Shown here piece by piece: positions 1,987 through 20,197 of a stretch of 38,364 nucleotides of DNA (position 1 is its first letter; each line of letters starts with the position of its first letter). The position numbers and the translations under genes were made by a program. A model generated the notes under the pieces. That model was not told where the DNA came from, did not search any database, and saw only the letters and a list, made by a program, of their open reading frames with translations. The DNA lies in assembly GCA_002790095.1 (NCBI GenBank), contig PFUL01000026.1:1-38364 (forward strand). The letters run 5' to 3'. This DNA is from Elusimicrobia bacterium CG_4_9_14_3_um_filter_62_55 (GTDB lineage: Bacteria; Elusimicrobiota; Elusimicrobia; UBA1565).

Positions 1987-2535
1987 ATGGGTGTTATTTT
2001 AGACAAGCTGCCCGGCGTCGCCGGCGTCCTTCCCGGAGGAGCCGGAGTCCTCGCCCGCGTCGACGACCTGATCAACTGGAGCCGGAAGTCTTCGTTGTGG
2101 CCGATGACCTTCGGACTCGCCTGCTGCGCCATCGAGATGATGGGCGCGTACGCGAACCGCTTCGACTTCGACCGCATGGGCGTCATTCCCCGGCCGAGCC
2201 CCCGCCAAGCCGATCTGATCATCATCGCGGGAACCGTCGTCAAAAAGATGGCGGATCCGATCATCCAGGTCTACAAGCAGATGCCGGAACCGAAGTTCGT
2301 CATCTCCTACGGTTCCTGCTCGAACTGCGGCGGCCCCTACTACGACTCCTACTCGGTCGTGAAGGGCGTCGATAAAATCATTCCCGTCGACGTCTACGTG
2401 GCCGGATGCCCGCCGCGCCCCGAAGCGCTGCAATTCGGGCTGATGCAGCTGCAGAAGAAAATCGAATCGATGAAAATCGCGAAGACTCAGGGCGCTTCCC
2501 CGCTGCAGGAGAAGGGCGCCCGGGATTTGGGTTGA
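1987..2535 (+). CDS. nuoB: NADH-quinone oxidoreductase subunit B
   Basis: A 182-residue connecting subunit holding the terminal N2 4Fe-4S cluster that passes electrons to quinone. The expected ligands are present: adjacent Cys46-Cys47 ([10 protein letters not shown]), Cys111 (YGSCSNCGG) and Cys141 (AGCPPRPEA). An additional Cys114 lies in the third-ligand loop. The reading frame is open further upstream, but ATG 1987, 2 nt after the nuoA stop, matches the family start. The stretch [13 protein letters not shown] is a family signature. Confidence 0.96.
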
Positions 2536-2540
2536 ACGCC

Positions 2541-3152
2541 ATGACGACCACGACCTTGGACCGCGAAGCCCTCCAGGCGAAGTTCGCGGAAAAATTTCCG
2601 GAGGCCGAGACGATCGGCGCCCCCGCAGAAGGCTCCGCCCCGACGGAGCTCAAAGGCTATTTGACCGTGCGCTTCCCCGATGGAGAGCGGCTGCTCGCCG
2701 CCTTGCGCTGGCTCAAAGAGGATTTGGGCTTCGCCTACCTCGACATGATCTCCGCGGTGGACTGGAAGGGCCCGGTGGACATCGACGGGTACATCCGCGA
2801 TCCCAATCCGAACGTGTTTCTTCCCGACGGCGCCACCCCTCAGGTCCAGCTTCCCGTCGCCAACAAAACCGTCGCCTACCGTGACGCCGTGGAATTGGTC
2901 TACCTCCTCTCGCATCTGGACGCGAAGATCAAGGTTTGCCTCAAACTCGACGTGCCGCGCGACGGAGGCTCGGCCCCGAGCGCCATCGGCGTGTTCAAAT
3001 CCGCCGACTGGCAGGAACGGGAAATCTTCGACCTCTTCGGGGTCGCCTTCCTGAACCACCCCAACCTGTCGAAAATCCTGACGCCGGATTTCCTGAAGGG
3101 ACATCCGCTGCGCAAAGACTACAAACACCAGAAGGACCGATTCGATGACTGA
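2541..3152 (+). CDS. nuoC: NADH-quinone oxidoreductase subunit C
   Basis: A 203-residue hydrophilic subunit of the connecting arm (30-kDa family). The signature runs from about residue 154: [14 protein letters not shown], then [12 protein letters not shown] and GHPLRKDY. NuoC and NuoD are separate proteins here, not fused as in E. coli. The middle contains a longer hydrophilic stretch (residues about 74-106) than I expect for the family. The frame is open upstream, but ATG 2541 is 5 nt after the nuoB stop. Its end overlaps nuoD by 8 nt. Confidence 0.95.
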
Positions 3153-17843: not shown

Positions 17844-18675
17844 GGCTTCCTGCGCGCGGGTGCTGCTGTATCACTCCGGGGAAATGGAGCTCCAGGAAAC
17901 CGCTTCCTTCGAGTCCCATCTGCCCGACTGCCCCGCCTGCCGCGACCGCGTTTCCCTCGCGCGCAAAAGCAAACGCGCCGTCGGCAAATTGCCGGGCGGC
18001 GCGCCGCCCGCCTTGCTTAAGACCACCGTCGAACAGGTGCTCGATTCCGGAGACGGCGGCGGCGCCTTCGGAAGATTCGTCGCCGTCGCAGTGATCGCCG
18101 CCGCGCTCTGGTGGGGCTATCAGAACTACGAGCGCTTCCTGCCGCCTCCGCCTGAGGACACGCAAACCTCGTCCGCGCAGGCCCGCCCGGCCAAGCGGCT
18201 GAGCATGCCCAAATCCGACGGGCGCCCGGTCCGAGTCAGCCGCCCGCTCGCGCGCGGCCGCTCGCGAAGCGCAGAGCGCTCCCTTTCCGACGCCCTCCCC
18301 ATGCCCGCGCGCCCCCTCCAGTGCGACTCGCGCCAGTCCATCCTCGCGTTCAAGCGCTACGCCTGGATGCGCTACGGCGCAGGACAGCCCCACATGGTTT
18401 ATTCGGCCGACCGCTACGCCTCCTGCGTCTGCGGAGCCGCCGCCCAAAACGCCGGACGCCCTGCCGCGCCGCCCGAGAGCTCCTCCCCGCTTCCCGAGCC
18501 CTCCTGCCCCGACTTCGCCGCCGGCGCCGTCTCCCAGGAGCGCTACGACCGCTTCATGCGAGGGCTGCTCAGCGCCGCCAAGGAGTATCACGCCCGCCTG
18601 CCGCTCAGCCGCGAGCAGGCCCTCAAACTCGCGCAATGCCTGTGCGGCGCCATGCCCAGCGTCGAAGGGGAGTAA
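17836..18675 (+). CDS. Membrane zinc-finger anti-sigma factor with Cys-rich sensor part
   Basis: A 279-residue protein starting at TTG 17836 with a strong GGAGGA (17825-17830). The cytoplasmic zinc motif HxxxCxxC is His28, Cys32 and Cys35. One membrane helix follows (about 81-95). The outer part begins with a Pro/Arg/Ser-rich linker and then two similar blocks, each opening with a Cys and closing with a CxCGA motif (SCVCGA and QCLCGA). The partner is surely the overlapping sigma factor. The paired CxC motifs could sense redox or metal, but that is a guess. Its TAA shares a base with rlmH. Confidence 0.8.
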   Translation: MAEASCARVLLYHSGEMELQETASFESHLPDCPACRDRVSLARKSKRAVGKLPGGAPPALLKTTVEQVLDSGDGGGAFGRFVAVAVIAAALWWGYQNYERFLPPPPEDTQTSSAQARPAKRLSMPKSDGRPVRVSRPLARGRSRSAERSLSDALPMPARPLQCDSRQSILAFKRYAWMRYGAGQPHMVYSADRYASCVCGAAAQNAGRPAAPPESSSPLPEPSCPDFAAGAVSQERYDRFMRGLLSAAKEYHARLPLSREQALKLAQCLCGAMPSVEGE

Positions 18676-19106
18676 TGGCGCTGACCGTCGCCATGCGTCT
18701 CGAATGGCTCAAGCCCGGAGCCCCCGCGCGCAAAGCCTTCCGGTTGCCCGGCGCGGGCGAGCTGTACCGTGAGTACGCGTCCCGCATCGCCCGCTATTGC
18801 GCGTTCGAGACCACCGGAAGCCCCGCCGAGGACGGGATCGTCTGGACCTGCGACCCGCGCGGAAAGACCCTGTCCTCCGAGGCCCTCGCCGAGCGCCTGC
18901 GCGGCGCCCGGGACGGCGGGGCGAAGTCCCTCTCGATTCGCGTCGGCGGTCCCGACGGACTCGCCCAAGGGGGCATCCTCCCCGCGCTCTGCTGGTCCTT
19001 CGGCCCCATGACGATGCCCCACGAACTCGCCGCCGTCGTCGCCGCGGAGCAGTTGTACCGGGCGTGGACCATCCTCGGCGGCGAACCGTATCACTTAGGC
19101 CATTAG
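18675..19106 (+). CDS. rlmH: 23S rRNA pseudouridine-1915 N3-methyltransferase
   Basis: A 143-residue SPOUT methyltransferase, about ten residues shorter than E. coli RlmH. It methylates the modified U1915 of 23S rRNA in helix 69. The SAM-binding knot is visible: the VGGPDGL loop, SFGPMTMPHELAAVVAAEQ and YRAWTILGGEPYH. The usual basic residue after PYH is replaced (PYHLGH). The reading frame is open upstream, but ATG 18675 is coupled to the anti-sigma stop. It is the last gene before the converging inverted-repeat region. Confidence 0.9.
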   Translation: MALTVAMRLEWLKPGAPARKAFRLPGAGELYREYASRIARYCAFETTGSPAEDGIVWTCDPRGKTLSSEALAERLRGARDGGAKSLSIRVGGPDGLAQGGILPALCWSFGPMTMPHELAAVVAAEQLYRAWTILGGEPYHLGH

Positions 19107-19156
19107 CCGAGAGAGACAGTTCGCCCCTCGCGTAATCCATGCGCAGACCCAATATG

Positions 19157-19327
19157 AACGGAACGTTTACGCGCTTCGGGCGCGTGGCTCGAAGATTTGC
19201 TTCGCAAATCTCCGAGCTCCAACGGAAACGGCTCGGCGCTCCCGCGCGAACGCGCCTCCACGCTAAAAATTGAATCCCGAAGGGATTCAACGACAATGTT
19301 AAAGGCGCGTGATGCGCGGGAGCGGCG
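19157..19327. repeat. Left arm of a long inverted repeat (multi-hairpin element)
   Basis: This arm is the imperfect reverse complement of 19601-19793. From outside inward it holds a UUCG-type hairpin (ACGCGC/GCGCGT, 19169-19185), a hairpin with outer stem GCTCG/CGAGC and inner stem AGATTTGC/GCAAATCT (19187-19217), a GAATCCC/GGGATTC hairpin (about 19272-19288), and an inner tail identical to the other arm over about 29 bp. No convincing protein is encoded. It lies downstream of rlmH. Confidence 0.85.
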
Positions 19328-19600
19328 GTATCAGCGCCGTCATCCGTCGAGCTCGGGCGTTTTTGGCTTCGAGCCTGCGACTCATCCTCGAAACTTCACA
19401 ACCCGACCGAAAACAACTCCTGCAGAGGGTGCAGGCATCTAAAGTTCCCACCGTTTAGACCCGCGCCCTCAACGGGGCGCAATCATGCCGAAGGAAATCG
19501 GATTTTCGAGGAAACCCATATAAAATATATATTTTTTACATATCGCGAGATATGTAAAAAGCGTTTTAATTTTCAGAACTTTTCAAAATATTCGATTTTG
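19328..19600. other. Gene-free core between the two inverted-repeat arms
   Basis: About 270 bp without a credible reading frame. The first half is GC-rich and includes a degenerate third copy of the GAGCTC...GAGCC hairpin (about 19347-19376) and a GCGCCC/GGGCGC hairpin near 19463. The second half is strikingly AT-rich (19517-19600) in an otherwise high-GC window and contains the central GNRA-loop hairpin. No transposase and no clear target-site duplication were found. Confidence 0.6.
19533..19560. terminator. Central 12-bp hairpin with GCGA loop and T/A tails
   Basis: TTTTTACATATC (19533-19544) pairs perfectly with GATATGTAAAAA (19549-19560) around a GCGA loop. A T-run leads in and an A-run leads out, so on either strand it looks like a factor-independent terminator with an AU-rich stem. 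It could also be a cruciform or protein-binding palindrome. Confidence 0.5.
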
Positions 19601-19793
19601 CGCCGCTCCCGCGCATCACGCGCCTTTAACCCTGCCGTTGAATCCCTCCGGGATTTACTTTTCAGCGTGGAGGCGCGTTCGCCCGGGAGGGCCATGCCGT
19701 TTCAGCGCCGTTGCCGCTGCCTTTCGAGCTCGCGCGTTTTTTGCGAAGCAAAAAACCGCGAGCCACGCGCCCAAGGCGCGTAAACGTGCCGTT
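19601..19793. repeat. Right arm of a long inverted repeat (multi-hairpin element)
   Basis: Mirror copy of 19157-19327, about 20 bp longer. The main hairpin (19728-19763) has outer stem GCTCGCG/CGCGAGC and inner stem GTTTTTTGC/GCAAAAAAC with a GAA loop. The stem bases differ from the left arm (GTTTTTTGC against GATTTGC), yet pairing is kept on both sides. The inner 29 bp and the block near 19665-19683 are nearly identical to the left arm. It lies just downstream of the minus-strand operon end at 19808. Confidence 0.85.
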
Positions 19794-19807
19794 TTTTAGA
19801 CCCGCCG

Positions 19808-20197
19808 TTACCCGAACAACTTTCCAAGAAACGACTTCCGCTCCTCCAGCTTCATCTCCGCCCGCGTCATCAGCGAAAAGTCGCTGGAGAAGCCCCCGGT
19901 CCCCGGCGCCAGCACGCGCGAGCCGTCCTCCATCTTCTCCCACGGCGCGCCCATCGCGTCCGCGAGTCTTCGGGCTTCGGCCGACTCGTCGGCGGCGTCC
20001 GAATTCCCGTTCGCGAACTGAATCCTCACTTCTGCGTCCCAATACTCGGGACCGCGCGCCGATTCGCGGTGCGCTTCGGGCGTCACCAAAACGCCTCGCG
20101 ACACGCGGCTTTGCAGGGCTTCGACGATCATCCTGTTGAAGGTCGCCGCTTCAGACGCCTCCTTCGCGAAATAGGTGTATTTCAAGTGAATGGCCAT
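19808..20197 (-). CDS. Small protein of unknown function, last gene of the rimP-ribF operon
   Basis: A 129-residue soluble protein that I do not recognise. It starts at ATG 20197, sharing a base with the ribF TGA, so it is translated from the same message. The N-terminal part reads MAIHLKYTYFAKEASEA with alternating strand/helix character, the middle is acidic, and the end is a basic helix (MKLEERKSFLGKLFG). There are no Cys residues, signal peptide or membrane helix. The inverted-repeat region follows 15 bp after its stop. Confidence 0.75.
   Translation of the reverse strand: MAIHLKYTYFAKEASEAATFNRMIVEALQSRVSRGVLVTPEAHRESARGPEYWDAEVRIQFANGNSDAADESAEARRLADAMGAPWEKMEDGSRVLAPGTGGFSSDFSLMTRAEMKLEERKSFLGKLFG

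Follow-up and report, generated by a model that had tools for sequence, protein, structure and literature searches.

The feature in the window probably consists of two copies, inverted relative to each other, of a lineage-specific, REPIN-like, non-autonomous mobile palindromic repeat; this composite is interrupted by an AT-rich repeat and inserted in a convergent spacer of about 12 bp. Here, the window is the whole stretch of 38,364 nucleotides that was analysed, a single contig (G000:C153) of a 4.31 Mb draft genome. The repeat is multicopy and has fixed ends, its site is empty in a sister genome, its distribution is restricted to one family, its second hairpin carries double changes, and its copies often lie near the 3' ends of genes. 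A paired, non-autonomous mobile repeat was one of several readings offered by the original prediction, and it is the one that is supported by the dispersed, multicopy units with fixed ends, the empty ortholog, the restriction to one lineage and the nesting of units that are described below.

The inverted arms and their insertion site

The element occupies the meeting point of two operons, as was first proposed: rlmH, on the forward strand, converges on a small ORF on the reverse strand that stands behind ribF, truB, rbfA, infB and nusA (Table 1). The small ORF matches no Pfam family. When the window was compared by BLAST with its own reverse strand, the arms (19157–19327 against 19793–19601) aligned with 78% identity over 193 columns (E 3e-40). 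Their lengths of 171 bp (left) and 193 bp (right) agree with the long inverted repeat, with arms of about 170 and 190 bp, that had been anticipated. The arms are unique in the window, which holds no other inverted repeat of comparable size or strength, and within 2 kb the sole further inverted match is the small hairpin of the core.

From the outside in, each arm comprises ACGG, hairpin 1 (TTTACGCGCyTCGGGCGCGTGG), hairpin 2 and a long stem, h3, which is tipped with a small palindrome. The hairpins are therefore met in the order h1, h2, h3 from either side, so that both operons face the same series, as had been noted. These small hairpins are real, in that the folding energy of both arms lies far below that of shuffled sequences (z −6.2 and −4.5). 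The stem bases of hairpin 2 differ between the arms, being AGATTTGC/GCAAATCT in one and GTTTTTTGC/GCAAAAAAC in the other, and pairing is kept in both, which is the behaviour that had been attributed to the main hairpin. The element contains no transposase, again as predicted.

The AT-rich core is a separate repeat whose palindrome has the form TTTTTACATATC-NNNN-GATATGTAAAAA with a variable loop (window 19495–19601; L182–L185 and L189–L192), and its copies elsewhere often lack the hairpin arms. The core was thought to carry a 12-bp GNRA hairpin; the hairpin is present (19533–19560), but the GNRA loop is not a conserved feature, the loop being GCGC, TTGA or TCAA in other genomic copies. Because the GNRA loop is not conserved among its repeats, the core behaves as a DNA palindrome. 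The segment between the left arm and the core (19368–19494), which is assigned to no repeat, includes a further hairpin, CCTGCACCCTCTGCAGG, on the minus strand.

The closest named relative is the Elusimicrobia MAG NORP122, whose NusA is 90% identical. In that genome the site is empty, with the stops of the orthologous small ORF and of rlmH only 12 bp apart (L063 10234/10247). L065, which is more distant, likewise has a minimal spacer, ribF running directly into rlmH. Comparison of these sequences indicates that about 690 bases were gained between the converging operons at a site where the spacer formerly measured about 12 bp. Both flanking proteins keep their C-terminal residues (YHLGH and LFG), which implies that the element entered the spacer, or expanded within it, and harmed neither gene. 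This empty-site evidence consists of one readable site; at two further sites for which empty orthologs were sought (neighbours of pyruvate kinase and adenosine deaminase), synteny has been lost.

Table 1. Features of the insertion region, in window coordinates
Feature	Position	Strand	Remarks
rlmH, final gene of left operon	18675..19106	+	PF02590, SPOUT methyltransferase RlmH
Intergenic insertion region, two converging genes either side	19107..19807	.	700 bp, against 12 bp in sister genome NORP122
Left arm: one unit, comprising a left-type end, the long stem h3 and a palindromic centre; degraded right-type end to ~19385	19157..19327	+	Aligned from first base with L002, L003, L004, L006
Left terminus, ACGG and hairpin 1 (ACGCGC-TTCGG-GCGCGT)	19158..19187	+	
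Left hairpin 2, with variable stem and a single conserved A.C mismatch	19187..19217	+	
Long stem h3 of left arm, inner hairpin TTGAATCCCGAAGGGATTCAA	19236..19327	+	Folding
AT-rich core, a separate repeat around palindrome 19533–19560	19495..19601	.	About 10 copies in genome
Right arm: inverted second unit, right-type end; h3 flipped relative to L174	19601..19793	-	
Long stem h3 of right unit	19601..19694	-	Folding
Right hairpin 2, stem differing from the left, with a single bulged base	19728..19763	-	
Right terminus, ACGG and hairpin 1	19763..19792	-	
Small conserved ORF, final gene of nusA-infB-rbfA-truB-ribF operon	19808..20197	-	Ortholog L063 9860-10234

The repeat family and the pairing of hairpin 2

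When the left arm was used as a BLAST query, about 20 strong places were found in its own genome. Four of the copies (L002, L003, L004 and L006) are complete units of ~260 bp, with ACGG at both termini and unique sequence beyond; overall, complete units are gene-less palindromes of about 230–360 bp. The left and right ends of these four show the same difference in hairpin 2 in each copy, and since the two ends differ consistently in complete units, the window copy is not one unit. Judged from its sequence, it is a nested composite, in which two inverted units surround the second, AT-rich repeat.

The end module of the family is ACGG-N4-TTTACGCGCyTCGGGCGCGTGG, which includes the near-invariant hairpin 1, followed by hairpin 2. 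A covariance model of this two-hairpin end (R1) was built from an alignment of 59 ends and matched 35 places in the window's genome at E <= 0.01. Copies of the family often lie near 3' ends, and many copies there had been named in the original prediction as support for a mobile or a 3'-end element. At least 35 matches each were found in G002 and in G007, which belong to another genus of the same family, together with five in G005, three in G001 and one each in G004 and G006. These counts come from 147 genomes sampled from the class, in which matches outside the family were weak and scattered. Collections of plasmids, phages and viral contigs returned no match to the element, and no Rfam family reached its gathering score. 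Among the ACGG-bounded units of the window's genome, no young pair with identical sequences was seen.

The two hairpins of the module behave differently. Hairpin 1 is nearly invariant across genomes. In the 69 distinct stems of hairpin 2, 966 of 987 pairs are Watson-Crick (98%), with 6 G-T and 10 A-C, and double changes occur in 10 of the 11 modelled pairs. The number of double-change cells was 175, versus 64.4 +/- 8.4 in shuffled alignments, and every slid version gave a far lower count. If a structure is kept as RNA, G-U pairs should be tolerated far more readily than A-C. As G-T is as rare as A-C here, the maintained object is most simply DNA and not RNA, and the near absence of G-U in 69 stems provides a simple way to tell DNA-level from RNA-level maintenance, a long-standing ambiguity. 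Selection on RNA or single-stranded DNA structure had been suggested for the main hairpin: the pairing is indeed kept by double changes, but the scarcity of G-U pairs speaks against the RNA part of the suggestion, and templated correction without selection offers an alternative. Most simply, then, hairpin 2 is kept either as a hairpin on single-stranded DNA whose shape a protein would read or by templated correction of the palindrome, two routes that the data do not separate.

The second of these routes amounts to a rival explanation, namely that the pairing of hairpin 2 is unselected and that one arm of the stem is copied onto the other by template switches that occur at quasi-palindromes when the DNA is replicated. 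We consider this a possibility to be taken seriously, if a doubtful one. Templated correction would produce just such an outcome, with 98% Watson-Crick pairs and intermediates of both kinds (G-T and A-C) that are equally rare. The invariance of hairpin 1 and the order of the two hairpins, which is kept across genera, speak against it, as correction alone need not produce either. Moreover, template switching competes as an explanation of the covariation only and leaves the mobile-repeat reading untouched.

Candidate mobilisers and position near genes

Under the mobile-repeat reading, the ends would be recognised as hairpins on single-stranded DNA by a trans-acting transposase, most likely an HUH/Y1 enzyme, and copies would survive mainly beside stop codons because the genome is compact there. 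Genomes of the family carry several Y1 genes (PF01797), and nine Y1 (HUH) genes (L147, L150, L153, L154, L157, L159, L162, L169 and L172) have terminal inverted repeats of 28–80 bp on either side. The ACGG-hairpin module itself was absent from within ~1.5 kb of the Y1 gene at all 30 Y1 loci inspected in 7 genomes, and a RAYT acting in cis was rejected for this reason. Some units do stand inside Y1 terminal repeats: in G002, both flanks of unit L200 match the L169 Y1 gene's terminal repeat over 30/30 bp and units L202, L207 and L215 carry that of Y1 gene L151, and in G007, unit L256 matches the repeat of a Y1 gene from G005 at 86%. For units of the window's own genome, the flanks gave no match to Y1 terminal repeats. 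The nesting of units, which often lie inside other inverted-repeat elements, fits either preferential insertion at the centres of palindromes or hitch-hiking and does not by itself identify the mobiliser. The nesting and the Y1-terminal-repeat link of some copies make mobilisation testable. The Y1 terminal repeats also hold short tandem repeats such as TTGTTGACTTGTTGAC, and L275 contains one of these repeats as an isolated palindromic dimer.

Outer ends of other kinds flank some units. These are TCCAwGTTyCC, which is accompanied by a 9-bp duplication, and GTAACTGCTC, a seven-copy end in G002 that has the hairpin module just inside. As several outer ends flank units, several transposases could be involved. 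A different rival holds that a classical cut-and-paste transposase with TCCAwGTTyCC outer ends moves the repeat, and that ACGG units are copies that have lost these ends. In its favour, such ends flank units in L179, L193, L195–L198, L210 and L213–L214, and the duplication GGGATTTCC is found in L240, with an 8/9 match in L222. We nonetheless think it unlikely, as 96 of 126 unit ends are without a recognised outer end, the outer ends that do occur are several and unrelated, and units without TCCAwGTTyCC ends share exact ACGG boundaries. In the 43 two-ended units, no consistent target-site duplication was seen and no register rose above chance. An autonomous element with ACGG-hairpin ends was likewise not found in these assemblies, which are drafts that break at such repeats.

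Other mobile elements were noted around the units. A second class of short inverted-repeat elements has the ends TCCAwGTTyCCnnAGTTT (L240 2140-2508; L222; 21 sites in G000) and is often nested with hairpin units. At the ends of G002 contigs C13, C19, C33, C35, C41, C58 and C6 (L269–L275), a recently multiplied element has the identical end GTAACTGCTCAGGTCGCC, with the hairpin module ~45 bp inside; the body of this element is absent from the draft. In L207 (about 2130-3080; G002:C14), an IS110-family transposase gene (PF01548, probably frameshifted) lies within a unit, which it splits between GATCTGGAG and CAATGAACGGC, immediately interior to hairpin 2; elements of the IS110/IS1111 type target palindromic repeats. 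IS66 was considered as a carrier and set aside, there being no IS66 gene in the G002 draft and no module with the IS66 genes of G000.

Gene calls around the copies were made with a codon-usage gene finder. The copies are intergenic, and many are no more than 20 bp from a stop codon; where a unit has no outer ends, the distance from the stop to hairpin 1 is mostly 7–30 nt, and start codons are usually >60 nt away. Convergent spacers hold 26 of 59 copies, compared with 18 of the 149 spacers that served as background (odds ratio 5.7, p 1e-6); this background is a modest sample drawn from the same stretches as the copies. The other 33 copies lie in tandem or divergent spacers. Terminator-like sites in the arms number 4, against 2.0 +/- 1.8 expected in shuffles, and the main hairpins yield no clean stem followed by a T-tract. 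A Rho-independent bidirectional terminator was rejected, as a GC-rich stem followed by a T-tract is not present on both strands.

These observations bear on a bidirectional 3'-end element, in which transcripts from either operon would end in, or be protected by, the hairpin series and the repeats would be kept for that purpose. The location that had been proposed for such an element is upheld by the enrichment at 3' ends and in convergent spacers, but a terminator is not, since about half of the copies are tandem or divergent and no convincing intrinsic terminator is present. The 44% of copies between convergent genes, ends that often lie 7–30 nt after stop codons and the identical hairpin order from both sides all fit this rival. 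Against these stand the 33 of 59 copies between tandem or divergent genes, terminator-like sites at the level of expectation, the near absence of G-U pairs and the lack of the repeat in most relatives. In addition, ordinary REPs of other phyla occupy the same position, <20 bp from gene 3' ends (PMC3733652), so that such a position need not mean a terminator. We regard maintenance for a 3'-end function as unlikely. A role in termination is unsupported, and if transcript ends are affected at all, this would have arisen as a by-product or through later co-option. Finally, a structural chromosome site (a nucleoid or replication-termination landmark), to which strong palindromes between converging operons had lent some appeal, is highly improbable given tens of dispersed copies, an empty ortholog and absence from most relatives.

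Comparison with known systems

Integron attC sites have variable sequence, a conserved hairpin structure on the single strand and a position near stop codons, and their core boxes are RYYYAAC...GTTRRRY. The variable-sequence, shape-conserved hairpin next to stop codons is a point of likeness. The family was not assigned to attC sites, as no core boxes were seen on inspection, there is no cassette array and the unit is symmetrical and two-ended. A bolder proposal, which we put forward tentatively and regard as rather unlikely, is that Elusimicrobiota carry self-nesting ("Russian doll") palindromic mobile repeats, new ones inserting in the centres of older ones, with hairpin 1 fixed for recognition and hairpin 2, drifting but strictly Watson-Crick, read by shape on single-stranded DNA only, as an analogue of attC sites.

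Bacterial MITEs (ERIC, NEMIS, RUP and others) are also short, gene-less inverted-repeat elements with strong secondary structure beside genes. They differ from the present units, which have structured ends and not simple terminal repeats of 15–30 bp, and which lack a constant target duplication, 9 bp being seen only in the TCCAwGTTyCC elements (L240, L222). As stated above, the outer ends TCCAwGTTyCC and GTAACTGCTC exist without an autonomous partner with ACGG-hairpin ends in the draft assemblies.

In the TIRYT layout, Y1 genes are flanked by terminal repeats, and there are families of long, partly self-complementary and often paired inverted repeats (PMC3733652). Y1 genes with long terminal inverted repeats are present here (the nine listed above), and some units lie inside identical repeats. 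Unlike TIR-dimers, the hairpin module flanks no Y1 gene examined and is not itself the terminal repeat of one; matches to such repeats are confined to the outer flanks of certain units in G002 and G007, with none at the window copy.

REPINs of the GI type consist of 16-mers 71 bp apart (PMC3116915, PMC3733652). The present family resembles REPs and REPINs in its paired, inverted hairpins, extragenic and non-coding nature, copy number in the tens and position within ~20 bp of 3' ends. It is unlike them in its size of 230–360 bp and in having two hairpins per arm and a long central stem. The GTAG (or CGTC) tag is absent, the terminus being ACGG-N4-TTTA and the inner side TGG, and the repeat does not flank a RAYT/Y1 gene in the 30 Y1 loci (~1.5 kb each). 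Extragenic palindromes are usually described from Proteobacteria; here, a countable family is found in an almost uncultured phylum, and its anatomy is unusual in placing one sequence-invariant hairpin beside one that is conserved in shape only. The repeats form a new family, unusual in the anatomy of its ends, of an already known kind of element, namely palindromic repeats of the REPIN, TIR-dimer or MITE-like type.
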